NCBI GenBank assembly: GCA_017454905.1 | Contig: JAFTCB010000052.1 | Coordinates: forward strand, 1-57,728 | From: Bacteroidales bacterium | GTDB taxonomy: Bacteria > Bacteroidota > Bacteroidia > Bacteroidales > UBA932 | DNA: 57,728 nt | Direction: 5' to 3' | Shown here: in pieces, positions 26,725 through 31,995 of the stretch | Layout of the letters: every line of letters begins with the position of its first letter | Position numbering within the stretch: the first letter of the stretch is position 1 | The notes under the pieces: generated by a model | Database searches by the model: none | The model's input: the letters and a program-made list of their open reading frames with translations, nothing else | Told to the model about the DNA's origin: nothing | Translations under genes and position numbers: made by a program

Positions 26725-28092
26725 ATGACGACGAAACGTGAAAAATTCGGCGGCCGCATGGCCGTCATCCTGGCGATGGCGGGATCCGCCATCGGGCTGG
26801 GCAATATCTGGCGTTTTCCCTATATGGTCGGCGAGCACGGCGGCGCTGCGTTCGTCATCGTCTATGTCGTTGCCACCCTGCTGATTTCGCTGCCCGTTTT
26901 CCTCGCCGAGGTCATGATCGGCCGGCGGAGCCACACCAATTCCCGGGACGCCTTCGCCCGCCTGTCGCGCCAGCACCCCTTCTGGAAGTGGGCCGGCTAC
27001 CTGACCATCCTTATCCCCACCCTGATTGCCTGCTACTACAGCGTCATCGGCGGCTGGTCGGTGGAGTATTTCCTCAAATCCTGCAGCCTGTCCTTCGTAC
27101 GGATGTCGCCGGAGGAGGCCAGCGGCTTCTTCGGGCCGTTCGCCGCTTCCCCCTGGACGCCGGTCATCATGCACCTGATCTTCCTGGGCATCACCGTGGC
27201 GGTGGTCGCCGGGGGCGTCAAGTCCGGCATCGAGAAGTTCAGCAAGATCTCGCTGCCGGTGCTCTTCGTGCTGATCCTCATGATCCTGACCTACTCCGTC
27301 AGCCTGCCCGGTGCCGGCGAAGGGGTCCGCTACCTGCTGCACCCGGACTGGAACGAACTGACGCCGCGCACCTTTGCCTATGCGATGGGGCAGAGTTTCT
27401 ATTCGCTCTCGCTGGGCATGGGCGCCATCATCACCTACGGCTCCTATGTCAGCAAGAAGGAGAACATCCTGACGACGAGTGCGGGCACGGCGGTGTCCGA
27501 CCTGCTTTTCGCCATCCTGGCGGGCTTCGCCATCATGCCTGCGGTGTTCGCCGCGGGGATCGAGCCGGGCGCCGGTCCGGGCCTGATTTTCCAGAGCATC
27601 CCCTATGTGTTCGCCAAGATGGGCGCCGGGATGCCGGTGCTGAGCGCCGCCGTGTCCATCCTCTTTTTCCTGGCCATCATCGTGGCGGCGATGACCTCCT
27701 GCATCTCGCTGGTAGAGGTGGGCGTGTCGTTCCTGATGGAGCGCTCCAGGATGTCCCGCGGCCGGGCGTGCCTGATCCTGTTCCTGCTGTGCGGCGGACT
27801 GGGCGTGCTGTGCTCCTTGTCTTTCGGTCCGCTGGCGGACGCGAAAGTGGCCGGGATGACCATTTTCGACCTGTTCGACTGGACCTGCTCCAACATCCTG
27901 TTGCTGTTGATGGCCCTGCTGGCCGTGGTCTTCGTCGGCTGGATCCTGCCGCGGCGGGTGGTGCATGACGAATTCACCAACGGCGGGCGCCTCGCCTTCA
28001 ACGAGCGCCTCTTCCCTGCGGTCTATTTCCTGATCAAGTGGGTGGCGCCGATCGCGGTCGTGGTCATTTTCTTCACCAATTTCATCCTGTAG
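26725..28092 (+). CDS. Neurotransmitter:sodium symporter (NSS) family transporter, copy 1
   Basis: Sodium-coupled amino-acid (or related solute) importer with the LeuT fold. The 455-residue product is all-helical with about 11 membrane segments, as in many bacterial NSS proteins. The TM1 signature GSAIGLGNIWRFPYM carries the sodium and substrate sites, and GMGAIITYGSYVSKKENI is the TM6-TM7 region. It is followed after 3 bp by a paralogue, so the two genes form a tandem duplication and are co-transcribed. The substrate is unknown. The ATG is preceded by 47 bp containing the folA-distal palindrome, with no clear promoter box. Confidence 0.92.
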   Translation: MTTKREKFGGRMAVILAMAGSAIGLGNIWRFPYMVGEHGGAAFVIVYVVATLLISLPVFLAEVMIGRRSHTNSRDAFARLSRQHPFWKWAGYLTILIPTLIACYYSVIGGWSVEYFLKSCSLSFVRMSPEEASGFFGPFAASPWTPVIMHLIFLGITVAVVAGGVKSGIEKFSKISLPVLFVLILMILTYSVSLPGAGEGVRYLLHPDWNELTPRTFAYAMGQSFYSLSLGMGAIITYGSYVSKKENILTTSAGTAVSDLLFAILAGFAIMPAVFAAGIEPGAGPGLIFQSIPYVFAKMGAGMPVLSAAVSILFFLAIIVAAMTSCISLVEVGVSFLMERSRMSRGRACLILFLLCGGLGVLCSLSFGPLADAKVAGMTIFDLFDWTCSNILLLLMALLAVVFVGWILPRRVVHDEFTNGGRLAFNERLFPAVYFLIKWVAPIAVVVIFFTNFIL

Positions 28093-28095
28093 GCG

Positions 28096-29460
28096 ATGGC
28101 GGCGCGGAGAGAGCATTTCGGCGGACGGTCTGCCGCGATCCTGGCCCTGGCGGGTTCGGCCATCGGGCTGGGCAACATCTGGCGCTTCCCCTATATGGTG
28201 GGCCAGACGGGCGGAGCGGCGTTCATCATCATCTACCTGGCGTCCTGCCTGCTGCTCTCGCTGCCGATTTTCCTGGCGGAAGCCATCATCGGACACCGCA
28301 CGCATGCCGGGACCTTCGGGGCGATGGAGCGGCTCGCGCCCGGCATGAAATGGAAATGGCTGGGCCTGCTGACCGTCCTCTCGCCGCTGGTCATCCTGTC
28401 CTACTACAGCGTGGTGGGCGGCTGGTCGATCGGCTACCTGTGGCAGTCGCTGACGGCGGGCTTCCATCTCGATGAGATCGGGGCGGTCTCTTCCGCATTC
28501 GGGCGCTTCGTCGCCGAGCCGTGGGTGCCGCTGCTCTTCCACACCCTCTTCCTGGGGGGCTGTGCCTGGATCGTGTCCGCCGGCGTGAAGTCGGGCATCG
28601 AGCGCTTCAACAAGATCACGATGCCGCTGCTCTTCCTGCTGATCGTCATGATCATGGTCTATTCGCTGACCCTGCCGGGGGCGCGGGCGGGCGTCGAATA
28701 CCTGCTCAAGCCGGATTTCAGCAAGATCACGCCGTCGGCCGTCGCCGCGGCGATGGGCCAGAGTTTCTTCTCCCTGTCGCTGGGCGTGGGGACCATCCTG
28801 ACCTACGCGTCCTATATCCGGCGGGATGAGAACATCCTGGTGACGGGTCTCGGAACGGTGGGATTCGACCTGCTGTTCGCGTTGATTGCCGGCTTCGCCA
28901 TCATGCCTGCGGTGTTCGCCGCGGGGATCGAGCCGGGCGCCGGACCCGGGCTGATCTTCGAGACGCTGCCGTACATTTTCGCCAAGATGGGTGCTTCGGC
29001 ACCCTGGCTGAGCGGCCTTGTGGCTGTCCTCTTCTTTGTCACGATCGTGTTCGCGGCGTTCACTTCCGCGATCTCGATGTATGAAGTAGGGGTCGCCTAC
29101 CTGGTGGAGCAGCGGGGGCTGTCGCGGCACAAAGCCACGGTCCTGATCTTCCTGGGGTGTTGGATCCTGGGGGCGCTCTGCTCGCTCTCCTTCGGACCGT
29201 TGTCCGGGACGCACATTTTCGGCCTGACGATCTTCAACTTCTGCGACAGGCTGACCTCCAACTTCCTGATGACCTTCGGCGGGCTCCTGTTCGTGATCTT
29301 CGTGGGCTGGAAGATGGACAAAACCGCCGTGCGCGACGAATTCACCTGCGGCGGCACCGCCCGCTTCAACACCGCCGTCTTCGGCGCCTTCTGGTTCTTG
29401 CTGCGCTACCTCGCCCCCCTCGCCATCCTCATCATCTTCATCACCAACTTCCTGGCATAG
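28096..29460 (+). CDS. Neurotransmitter:sodium symporter (NSS) family transporter, copy 2
   Basis: Paralogue of the preceding transporter, 454 residues, with the same TM1 signature (GSAIGLGNIWRFPYM) and the same FAIMPAVFAAGIEPGAGPGLIF stretch in two parts. Overall similarity is clear along the whole length, but most codons differ. A 53-nt block is identical (27523-27575 and 28891-28943). Substrate residues in TM3 and TM8 regions differ between the copies, so specificities may have diverged. The 3' end overlaps the convergent flavoprotein gene by 20 bp. Confidence 0.92.
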   Translation: MAARREHFGGRSAAILALAGSAIGLGNIWRFPYMVGQTGGAAFIIIYLASCLLLSLPIFLAEAIIGHRTHAGTFGAMERLAPGMKWKWLGLLTVLSPLVILSYYSVVGGWSIGYLWQSLTAGFHLDEIGAVSSAFGRFVAEPWVPLLFHTLFLGGCAWIVSAGVKSGIERFNKITMPLLFLLIVMIMVYSLTLPGARAGVEYLLKPDFSKITPSAVAAAMGQSFFSLSLGVGTILTYASYIRRDENILVTGLGTVGFDLLFALIAGFAIMPAVFAAGIEPGAGPGLIFETLPYIFAKMGASAPWLSGLVAVLFFVTIVFAAFTSAISMYEVGVAYLVEQRGLSRHKATVLIFLGCWILGALCSLSFGPLSGTHIFGLTIFNFCDRLTSNFLMTFGGLLFVIFVGWKMDKTAVRDEFTCGGTARFNTAVFGAFWFLLRYLAPLAILIIFITNFLA

Positions 29461-30760
29461 ACCCAAGGCCCCGGGATGAATACGCGGCCGTGCCTCCTGT
29501 CGAGCCTGAGAGGGAGGCGGCGACGACCGCGGCGGTGGACCAGGCGGCCTGGAGGTTAAAGCCTCCCGTGACAGCATCCACGTCCAGCGCCTCCCCGGCG
29601 AAGAAGAGCCCGGGGAAAAGTTTGGATTCCAAGGTGTTGATATTGACCCCGGAGAGCGCCACGCCGCCACAGGTCACGAATTCCTCTTTGAAGCGGGCGC
29701 GGCCGGCAACCGGATAGGCGTCGGCCGTCAAGGTTGCGGCCAGCCGGGCAGCGCCCTTGCTGCCGAGTTCCGCCCAGCGCAGGTCCTCCCGGAGCGCGGA
29801 GCGCCCCAGCAGATGTTGCCACAACCGGGCCGTAATCCCTTCCGGCGGTGTGCTGGCGGCCATTTTACGCGGATTCGCCGCGGCCTGGGCGGAGATCCAT
29901 TTCCGGACCTCCGGTTCGGCAGCATCCAGCCAGTTGATGAGCAGAGAGCCGCTATAGCCGTTTTCCGCCAGGTGGCGGGCGGCGTAAGAACTCAGGCGCA
30001 GCGTTGCGGGCCCGCTTACGCCCCAGTCGGTCAGCAGCAGGGTGCCGCGTGCGCGGAAATTCGTTCCTGCGAGGGACAGCGCCGCCTGTTCCACCACGGT
30101 CCCCATCAAGGCGCGCAGGCCCGCATCCGGAATCTTCAGGGTGAAAAGCGACGGCACGCAGGGCGTCACTTCGACACCTTCCGGCAGGAGTTGCTGCAGT
30201 TTCTGCTGCGAACAGCCGCCTACGCAGACGACGACCTTATCGAAGTCCTCCCCGTCCCCCTTTCCGTCATTCCCGGCTTGACCGGGAATCCCCACCCGGA
30301 AGCCGCCCTCCGCCAGCGCCTCGATCCGTTCCACCGGGGCACGCAGGCACACCTGCACCCCCGTTTCGCGCAGCCCGCGCTCCAGCGTCCGGACAATCTG
30401 CATCGCGTCCTGGCTCACCGGGAAGACACACTGGTCCTCCTGCGTGGTAAGCCGCACACCCTCCGCCTCCCACCAGCGCTGTGTATCGGCGGGGCTGAGC
30501 ACCCGCAGCGCCCGGCGCATCAACTGCTCCCCGCGTGGATACACCTCGGCCAGACGCATTTTCCCGGGTTCCTGCCCGGTCAGCGCTACGTCACGGAAAC
30601 TGTTGGTGAGATTGCACCGGCCACCGCCCGTGACGGCCACCTTGGCAAGCAGCTTCGGTCCCGCCTCGAAAAGCGTCACCTCCGCGTCCGGCTGCCGGCG
30701 CTTCAAGCCGACGGCGCAAAAGCACCCGGCAGCCCCGCCTCCGATAACCGCCACTTTCAT
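29441..30760 (-). CDS. HI0933/BaiN-family NAD(P)/FAD-dependent flavoprotein
   Basis: Cytoplasmic flavoprotein of 439 residues, family HI0933 (YhiN, BaiN relatives). The N-terminal Rossmann FAD site is VAVIGGGAAGCFCAVGLKRR, followed by the family mark VTGGGRCNLTN. The C-terminal FAD segment is LFFAGEALDVDAVTGGFNLQAAWSTA. The biochemical role of most members is unproven. Residues near 157-166 read GIPGQAGNDG, which is the translation of a palindromic repeat (30265-30290) apparently inserted in frame in a surface loop. The start (ATG at 30760) overlaps the stop of the upstream PTPS-like gene by 4 bases, making it the last gene of the queD-folE operon. The C-terminus overlaps the NSS gene. Confidence 0.9.
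   Translation of the reverse strand: MKVAVIGGGAAGCFCAVGLKRRQPDAEVTLFEAGPKLLAKVAVTGGGRCNLTNSFRDVALTGQEPGKMRLAEVYPRGEQLMRRALRVLSPADTQRWWEAEGVRLTTQEDQCVFPVSQDAMQIVRTLERGLRETGVQVCLRAPVERIEALAEGGFRVGIPGQAGNDGKGDGEDFDKVVVCVGGCSQQKLQQLLPEGVEVTPCVPSLFTLKIPDAGLRALMGTVVEQAALSLAGTNFRARGTLLLTDWGVSGPATLRLSSYAARHLAENGYSGSLLINWLDAAEPEVRKWISAQAAANPRKMAASTPPEGITARLWQHLLGRSALREDLRWAELGSKGAARLAATLTADAYPVAGRARFKEEFVTCGGVALSGVNINTLESKLFPGLFFAGEALDVDAVTGGFNLQAAWSTAAVVAASLSGSTGGTAAYSSRGLGSMPGSW
30265..30290. repeat. REP-like palindromic element, copy 2, inside a coding sequence
   Basis: CGTCATTC...GAATC element with a perfect 8-bp stem, ATTCCCGG (30269-30276) and CCGGGAAT (30282-30289), and loop CTTGA. Flanks and loop equal those of the copy at 18536, and the stem differs by paired changes. 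It is translated as part of the flavoprotein. Confidence 0.7.
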
Positions 30761-31086
30761 CGTTCGTAGGAGGCCTCGTTTCCGGGGGATTCTTCTACCT
30801 CGACTTTGTAGCATTGCGGGATCTGTTCGCAGATCCAGCGGGCGAGCTGCTCAGTGGTGGGGTTGAAGGGGAGGACTTCGTTGAGGTCCCGGTGGTCGAG
30901 CGCGCCGCAGATGCGCCGCTCGATCTCACAGAAATCCACCACCATCCCGTCGGCGTCCAGCTCTTCGGATGCACAGTACACGGTGATCTTCCAGTTGTGC
31001 CCGTGGTCCGGCTCCGTCTGCGTGCCGCCGGCGAAAGAGATGTGGTGGCTGGCGGACACCACCATCGTCTTCTTGACCTTAAACAT
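30757..31086 (-). CDS. PTPS-III-like pterin synthase paralogue (candidate FolB bypass)
   Basis: The 109-residue product is a T-fold protein of the 6-pyruvoyl-tetrahydropterin synthase/QueD family. The zinc histidines H14, H28 and H30 (SASHH, DHGHN) are kept. Aligned without gaps to the QueD encoded two genes upstream, the catalytic Cys24 is Thr here and residue 25 is Glu, giving the motif TEPDHGH. PTPS-III enzymes are described as having a glutamate replacing or accompanying the cysteine, and as cleaving dihydroneopterin triphosphate to 6-hydroxymethyl-dihydropterin, bypassing FolB in folate synthesis. Direct adjacency to folE (8-bp overlap), whose product is that substrate, supports this. 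The ATG at 31086 is chosen by homology; the open frame extends to 31131. Confidence 0.75.
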   Translation of the reverse strand: MFKVKKTMVVSASHHISFAGGTQTEPDHGHNWKITVYCASEELDADGMVVDFCEIERRICGALDHRDLNEVLPFNPTTEQLARWICEQIPQCYKVEVEESPGNEASYER

Positions 31087-31669
31087 GGAACTTGTCGATG
31101 TAGGAAAGGAACTCATTGCGCGTCTGCGCATTGGTACGGAACGAACCGGTGAGGTAGGTGGAGGTCATCACCCCGCTCTTGCGCACCCCGCGGCTCTCCT
31201 TGCACATGTGCCGGCCACGCATCATCAGCGCCATCCCGCGCGGCGGATTCTCCGTCCCGAGCGCCTCGGTCAGCATCTCCACCACATCGTGCACCAGCCG
31301 CTCCTGGACCTGCAGCCTCGCGGCACAATAATCCACGACGCGGCCGATCTTCGAAAGCCCCAGGATCCGGCCCTTGGGATTGGGCAGATAGGCGAACCAG
31401 TAGTCGCCGAAGAAAGTCCGGCAGTGGTGCTCGCACACGGAGTAGAAAGGACCCGTGTCCACGACCATGTCGTCGTAGATGATGCCGTCCTGCCCGTTGG
31501 GGAAGGTGGTCACGACCGGCGCTTGCGCCGGGTCGTAGCCGCGGAACATCTCGCGGAACATCCGGACCATCCGGTCCGGGGTGTCCAGCAAGCCCGTGCG
31601 GGAAGGGTCTTCGCCGATGAACTCGAGCAGTTCGCGGATATGCTGCCTGGCCTGTTCTTCTGTGATCAT
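31079..31669 (-). CDS. folE: GTP cyclohydrolase I
   Basis: Zinc enzyme converting GTP to 7,8-dihydroneopterin triphosphate, the shared precursor of folate and queuosine. The 196-residue product shows zinc ligands C79 and H82 (SVCEHHCRTF) and C156 (HMCKESRG). It also has the signature GLSKIGRVVDYCAARLQVQERL in the core and the usual C-terminal loop. The start ATG at 31669 overlaps the queD stop (ATGA); a longer frame continues upstream only as a shadow of queD. It sits between two PTPS-family genes that can each use its product, one for queuosine and one probably for folate. Confidence 0.96.
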   Translation of the reverse strand: MITEEQARQHIRELLEFIGEDPSRTGLLDTPDRMVRMFREMFRGYDPAQAPVVTTFPNGQDGIIYDDMVVDTGPFYSVCEHHCRTFFGDYWFAYLPNPKGRILGLSKIGRVVDYCAARLQVQERLVHDVVEMLTEALGTENPPRGMALMMRGRHMCKESRGVRKSGVMTSTYLTGSFRTNAQTRNEFLSYIDKFHV

Positions 31670-31995
31670 ACTTCGTAGGTTGCGGTGTTGTCTTCCGTCT
31701 CCTTGACGATGACCTTGTAGCAGCAGGGGATCTGTTCGCAGATCCAGCGCGCGAGGTTCTCCGCCGTGGGATTGAACGGCAGGACCTCGTTGAGGTTGCG
31801 GTGGTCCAGGCGGTCGGTCACGCGCTCCTTGATGGTCTTGAAATCCACCACCATCCCGTTCGCGTCGAGCTCCGGGGCCTTGCAGAAGACCTCGATCTCG
31901 TAGTTGTGCCCGTGGGGCCGGGCGCACTTCGTGGGATAATCCACCTCGAGCCGGTGGCTCGCGGCGATCCGGATCTTTTTGGAGACGTAATACAT
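31666..31995 (-). CDS. queD: 6-carboxy-tetrahydropterin synthase (QueD)
   Basis: Second step of queuosine/7-deazaguanine synthesis, turning dihydroneopterin triphosphate into 6-carboxy-tetrahydropterin. The 109-residue product carries the CxxxHGH motif (C24 in KCARPHGHN), zinc-binding H14, H28 and H30, and the substrate-binding DHRNLNEV with catalytic Asp-His. It is the first gene of a four-gene overlapping operon. A TATCTTTG promoter box ends 7 nt before the ATG, so the transcript should have almost no leader. A PTPS annotation is possible, but the cysteine motif and bacterial context favour QueD. Confidence 0.9.
   Translation of the reverse strand: MYYVSKKIRIAASHRLEVDYPTKCARPHGHNYEIEVFCKAPELDANGMVVDFKTIKERVTDRLDHRNLNEVLPFNPTAENLARWICEQIPCCYKVIVKETEDNTATYEV

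Follow-up and report, generated by a model that had tools for sequence, protein, structure and literature searches.

A stretch of 57,728 nucleotides from contig JAFTCB010000052.1 of a Bacteroidales bacterium (assembly GCA_017454905.1; hereafter the window) carries two genes of the PTPS family around folE, the gene for GTP cyclohydrolase I. As a preliminary description of this DNA had stated, the genes overlap, and on the minus strand a QueD-type gene with the motif CARPHGH comes first, then folE and then a second PTPS gene with TEPDHGH. The protein of this last gene lacks the catalytic cysteine of QueD and has a glutamate at position 25. It is very probably a PTPS-III that replaces the dihydroneopterin aldolase FolB, in a cassette predicted to lead from GTP to the substrate of HPPK; we infer the reaction, the metal and the folate route from sequence and gene context. 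FolE would convert GTP into dihydroneopterin triphosphate, from which the Glu25 enzyme, presumably a zinc T-fold protein, in which Glu25 would take over the role of the lost cysteine, would make 6-hydroxymethyl-7,8-dihydropterin directly, replacing FolB. HPPK (FolK) would lead this product onward to folate.

PTPS-III is described in the passages cited as a subfamily of COG0720 that replaces FolB in Plasmodium and in diverse bacteria (PMC5041015, PMC3223725, PMC2229834), and the replacement of FolB by enzymes in which a glutamate replaces or accompanies the cysteine is already published (PMC5041015, PMC3223725, PMC5615194). For Plasmodium PTPS, the part of the source concerned places Glu38 where the cysteine would be, together with formation of 6-hydroxymethyl-7,8-dihydropterin from dihydroneopterin triphosphate (PMC2229834).

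A Cys-less PTPS with an invariant glutamate

Scanning named bacterial genomes yielded 79 loci; 16, from records titled Bacteroidales or Bacteroidia, show 86-94% identity. The Cys-less copy was also found at L053 and L086, both with DEPMHGH, and at L059 with WEPLHGH; the title of L086 reads 'Candidatus Cryptobacteroides avistercoris'. The Cys-less set comprises 21 distinct genomes, 18 of the window's own type and three others. Seven of the 16 scan relatives are the same as seven genomes from a draw of 151 genomes of the genus, in which 63 were considered good (completeness >= 90%, contamination <= 5%), and one metagenome-assembled genome (MAG) contributes both L107 and L082, contigs that each hold half of one cassette.

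In the alignment Glu25 and Pro26 are invariant in all 21 Cys-less sequences, while residue 24 is Thr in 16, Val in two, Asp in two, Trp in one and Cys in none. QueD is marked by CxxxHGH and PTPS-III by ExxHGH, published motifs offset by one residue, and the section consulted describes a CExxHGH hybrid that can serve both pathways (PMC5041015). The letters T24, E25 and HGH given in the preliminary description are right, but the glutamate does not occupy the position of the cysteine: Thr24 aligns with Cys24 and Glu25 follows one residue later. His14, His28, His30, Asp64, His65 and Glu99 are retained in all 21 copies, from which a bound metal may be expected in the protein. The gene is under purifying selection (median dN/dS 0.14, 18 sequences). 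Its AlphaFold model shows the PTPS T-fold with a mean pLDDT of 95.7, and the best structure matches of this model are QueD and PTPS chains, Plasmodium PTPS included. Family, ExxHGH motif, metal-binding histidines, catalytic Asp/His/Glu and fold are hence all present.

Other identities were checked against the same features. A PTPS-I/III hybrid has Cys and Glu in one protein, and here Cys24 is replaced in 21 of 21 sequences. Classification as QueD (PTPS-I) is contradicted by Thr24 and by a score of 73.2 bits against the NCBIfam QueD model, whose cut-off of 89.25 bits only the partner passes; the copy thus differs from QueD proteins such as that of E. coli (4ntk, 4ntn) in both catalytic cysteine and model score. 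The PTPS-II (biopterin) motif CxxxxxHGH occurs in neither window copy. The protein does not match FolB (PF02152), PF01242 being the only match.

Distribution of FolB and HPPK

Absence of folB had been proposed as a check on the bypass. In the window's own genome, 82% complete, neither a PF02152 match nor an intact folB or folB-folK was found, and the 21 distinct Cys-less genomes (the window's own, the 19 of L038-L053, L059, L086 and L107, and G278) likewise gave no PF02152 match, FolB2-type aldolases not having been searched for. These genomes appear to have lost FolB. Among the 39 genomes of the locus-scan search FolB was found in 17, all with a Cys-keeping PTPS; the remaining FolB-less genomes are G084, L074 and L077.

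In the genus draw FolB is present in 87 of 151 genomes. PTPS was read in the 65 genomes with a match, of which two were kept out of the table: G257, truncated ahead of the motif, and G305, whose match is weak. The types found are CExxHGH in 42 genomes (two copies in G213), C-only in 12 and the split pair, i.e. a Cys-less copy with a CxxxHGH partner, in nine. FolB is absent from all 51 Glu25-bearing genomes and present in 11 of the 12 C-only ones (Fisher p 1.9e-11, a test that ignores kinship); the lone C-only genome without it, G301, is 61% complete. Eleven genomes match neither FolB nor PTPS, none of them among the 63 good ones. These good genomes have FolB in 37 cases, a Glu25-PTPS in 25, both in none and neither in one (G305). 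HPPK was detected in 61 of them, 36 with FolB and 25 with Glu25-PTPS, that is with exactly one of the two in 61 of 61. It is also present in all nine split-pair genomes of the draw and in the window's own genome. FolB missing while later folate enzymes are retained is the genomic context of a PTPS-III, and it is what was found, HPPK being the later enzyme searched.

The exception G305 (L205) is 93% complete. It has QueE- and QueC-like genes but lacks FolB and HPPK, and its PTPS match is weak; it is a possible folate auxotroph.

Several observations weigh against a FolB replacement. The window's own assembly is incomplete, as said, and most of the other genomes compared are MAGs. Furthermore, the counts do not represent independent cases. 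Only seven changes of the FolB state and six of the Glu state are needed on the PTPS tree. Once corrected for kinship, the association between FolB loss and Glu25 is not significant, with one well-supported independent pair, or seven counting all branches; few events hence underlie the clean table of FolB against Glu. CExxHGH and FolB occur together in 12 genomes outside the genus (L054-L058, L061, L063, L066, L068, L071, L085 and L087; several titled Bacteroides or Phocaeicola), so CExxHGH by itself does not predict FolB loss. This means that the glutamate can precede the loss of FolB, and these genomes possibly represent the stage before it. In a draw of 149 genomes from the wider family, with 115 PTPS matches in 108 genomes and motifs read at 30 loci and 17 further places, FolB is present in 128. 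Five good genomes lack it: G084, G001 and G015 have CExxHGH, whereas in G027 and G114 PTPS, too, went unmatched (HPPK was not searched there). A further genome, G042, has neither FolB nor Glu and is 71% complete.

These points leave some room for a Glu25 copy with another pterin role, the organism using an aldolase outside PF02152 or another source of pterin. FolB2, a non-PF02152 aldolase that our searches did not include, is named as an alternative in gut reconstructions, in the part of that paper concerned (PMC6593275), and the 12 outside genomes show that Glu need not imply a bypass. We nevertheless consider this improbable given the published ExxHGH motif and the Plasmodium precedent, the invariance of Glu25 where the Cys position varies, and the pairing of HPPK with exactly one of FolB and Glu25-PTPS. 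The folate half of the preliminary description is thus well supported by motif, missing FolB, retained HPPK, strictly kept Glu25 and fold; its queuosine half fared otherwise.

The QueD-type partner and the queuosine pathway

The partner has the CxxxHGH motif formerly ascribed to it (C24-A-R-P-H28-G-H30) and passes the QueD model. C24, His14, His28, His30, Asp64, His65 and Glu99 are kept in 21 of 21 partner sequences, two of which come from contigs without the third gene in view, and residue 25 is Ala or Ser. This gene, too, is under purifying selection (median dN/dS 0.13, 18 sequences). By motif and model it is a QueD/PTPS-I, but the genome with QueE and QueC that should go with this was not found.

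QueC (PF06508) was counted only when strong (E <= 1e-25; the next matches are at 5e-7 or worse). Strong QueC occurs in 41 of 42 CExxHGH and 11 of 12 C-only genomes, together 52 of 54, and in none of the nine split-pair genomes tested, which are drafts and represent nine of the 21 Cys-less genomes. These nine do have a weak PF06508 match (23.7-26.7 bits, cut-off 22) at positions 1-120 of open reading frames (ORFs) of 374-555 aa. Since it also occurs beside a strong QueC in other members, for example G198, the weak match was read as another PP-loop protein, perhaps TilS; a true QueC also matches TilS weakly. As no genome reached the 240-bit cut-off of the QueE model (TIGR04508), QueE was judged against controls: nine of 11 C-only or CExxHGH control genomes score 145-178 bits, the misses being G309 and G318. 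None of the 21 Cys-less drafts, nor G167 with its cut cassette, has a match of that strength (<= 25 bits), and six PTPS-less control genomes do not have one either. The gene queE adjoins most Bacteroidaceae-type, C-only and CExxHGH loci read, the loci without it being L178, L192, L207, L214 and the family's YDGKC-type loci (3.4-kb stretches), and neither queE nor queC lies beside any of the cassettes read.

The preliminary description had one FolE product feeding queuosine through one flank and folate through the other. For such a division of labour, with the CxxxHGH copy serving de novo queuosine synthesis, speak the QueD model, the kept C24 and other catalytic residues under constraint, and TGT, which was found in 20 of the 21 Cys-less genomes (missed in G149, a fragment in G200). 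However, with QueE at 0 of 21 and strong QueC at 0 of 9, when most of the C-only and CExxHGH genomes searched do have them, and with neither gene adjoining a cassette, we regard it as very unlikely. With QueE and strong QueC missing, no preQ0 pathway is visible that the partner could feed, and its job is probably not de novo queuosine. The presence of TGT means that queuosine by salvage is possible; TGT was also found in all six FolB genomes without QueC that were searched. Decay of the partner is unlikely because its sequence is under constraint, and it may make its own product for some other use. Taken as a whole, the cassette resembles a module for folate synthesis to which an orphan QueD-type protein belongs.

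Elsewhere in the genus, several CExxHGH loci are ordered queC-PTPS-queE (e.g. L174:4424-5975, L117, L185 and L218), and the PTPS enzymes of this type are predicted to have two jobs, in folate and in queuosine. An RNase P RNA gene lies just upstream of the cluster in two CExxHGH genomes (L174:6031-6341 and L117:6061-6373). Seven FolB-bearing genomes of the genus (G107 and six others) have a strong QueC and no PTPS match, G107 also being without a QueE-strength match; such genomes perhaps salvage a later intermediate.

Layout and history of the cassette

Coordinates are listed in Table 1. The start of the PTPS-III-like gene was taken at the position common to the relatives; the 124-aa ORF originally listed begins within folE. 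PF01242, with a cut-off of 22.4 bits, is matched by the partner at 105.3 bits. Overlap lengths were checked at every locus of the window's type with both PTPS genes on the contig.

Table 1. Features of the cassette, in window positions
Feature	Positions	Strand	Remarks
QueD-type gene (partner)	31666..31995	minus	109 aa, CxxxHGH; TIGR03367 91.8 bits (cut-off 89.25)
folE, GTP cyclohydrolase I	31079..31669	minus	196 aa; NF006826 176 bits (cut-off 162)
PTPS-III-like gene	30757..31086	minus	109 aa; PF01242 80.5 bits; ExxHGH; Cys-less clade, n=21
Codons 24-30 of PTPS-III-like gene, T-E-P-D-H-G-H	30997..31017	minus	Thr in Cys place, Glu25, predicted zinc-binding HGH
Codons 24-30 of QueD-type partner, C-A-R-P-H-G-H	31906..31926	minus	read from the sequence
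4-base overlap, stop of QueD-type gene and start of folE	31666..31669	minus	same in 17 distinct genomes of the window's type
8-base overlap, end of folE and start of PTPS-III-like gene	31079..31086	minus	same in 17 distinct genomes of the window's type

The arrangement of folE between two PTPS genes recurs in 15 of the 16 close relatives (named contigs), which argues against chance; in the sixteenth, L107, the contig ends inside folE. At L059 the three genes are spaced by 4-5 bases and do not overlap. At L053 and L086 an opposite-strand gene with ATPase_2/AAA matches separates folE from the PTPS-III gene (L053:4750-5892 and L086:4879-5889, the L086 match lying just below the Pfam cut-off).

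In the tree the Cys-less copies form one clade (support 100/98, 12 rows) and the QueD-type partners another (98/94, six rows). Each clade splits into the window's type and that of L053/L086, which suggests that the cassette was inherited or moved as a unit. A recent duplication of the pair within the clade can be discarded, forcing the window's two copies into one clade being rejected (p-AU 0.0047). At residues 63-92 these copies are 84% identical to each other, against 39-52% elsewhere in the pair, and the window's Cys-less copy is 73% identical to other Cys-less copies there. An old conversion, constraint or shared surfaces are alternative explanations. Ongoing gene conversion within single genomes was rejected: same-genome and different-genome identities at these residues are equal (0.84), so that conversion was at most an old event.

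A bolder and clearly less probable arrangement is that both copies cooperate in folate synthesis, through a mixed hexamer or coupled activities. The cassette would then be a two-protein dihydroneopterin-triphosphate lyase, in which a former QueD, captured from the lost queuosine pathway and freed by the loss of QueE and QueC, joins the Glu25 protein. The invariant overlaps, constraint on both copies, a partner left without QueE and QueC, and the similarity at residues 63-92 are in keeping with this, and PTPS active sites sit between three adjacent monomers according to the passage cited (PMC7546909). On the other hand, each copy looks complete by itself, known PTPS enzymes are homohexamers, residues 63-92 are highly identical family-wide and may reflect only constraint or old conversion, and the cassette is not overlapping in L059 and interrupted in L053 and L086. 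Replacement of FolB by the Glu25 copy is the reading we prefer.

No foreign composition was detected: the cassette genes have a G+C content of 0.60-0.62 against 0.63 for the window, with GC3 inside the range of five neighbour genes. A riboswitch before the cassette was not found: no Rfam family reached its gathering score in the window or at the eight cassette loci among 11 loci scanned. The cassette is followed, with a 4-base overlap, by a gene for an HI0933-like flavoprotein (29441-30760), also found near the cassette in relatives including L053 and L059, and on the opposite strand in L039 and L050. At L059:1242-2036 and L053:6434-7228 a convergent short-chain dehydrogenase gene comes next after the PTPS-III gene; sepiapterin reductase has the short-chain dehydrogenase fold. 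Two adjacent transporter-like ORFs at 26725-29460 presumably resemble sodium:neurotransmitter symporters.

Relation to known systems and implications

The window's enzyme resembles known PTPS-III proteins in ExxHGH motif, PTPS fold, metal and catalytic residues, missing FolB and adjoining folE. It differs in occurring in Bacteroidales, in overlapping folE and in being linked, in genomes where QueE and QueC are missing, to a CxxxHGH paralogue. The Plasmodium PTPS chains, at 163 residues, are longer and share 18-27% identity with it. The best sequence match among solved structures is archaeal, Pyrococcus horikoshii PH0634 (2dj6, 2dtt; E 2.7e-8), also with ExxHGH. With the CExxHGH hybrid as set out in the section cited (PMC5041015), which 42 FolB-less genomes of the same genus have, it shares the position of the glutamate; unlike here, where the copy is Cys-less and QueE and QueC are gone, the hybrid keeps Cys and Glu in one protein and is accompanied by QueC in 41 of 42 genomes. 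Among the titles and abstracts searched, none described a PTPS-III in Bacteroidales or a QueD kept without QueE and QueC, although they may have been mentioned before. What appears to be new is the Bacteroidales cassette with its orphan QueD-type partner, together with the occurrence of three states in a single genus.

It seems that in a few bacteria of gut and rumen FolB has given way to a remodelled protein related to an enzyme of tRNA modification. FolB is regarded as a standard folate step, and vitamin reconstructions of the gut that rely on FolB only would score these bacteria as incomplete. The genus, a large one, amounts to a natural experiment: some members have FolB, some a CExxHGH enzyme with QueC and some a split pair without QueE and QueC, so that the steps by which an essential enzyme was replaced can be put in order. 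It is puzzling that selection maintains a QueD-type protein whose pathway is missing. Should the two copies form a two-protein lyase, PTPS would have a hetero-oligomeric member, and vitamin synthesis would have captured an enzyme of tRNA modification.

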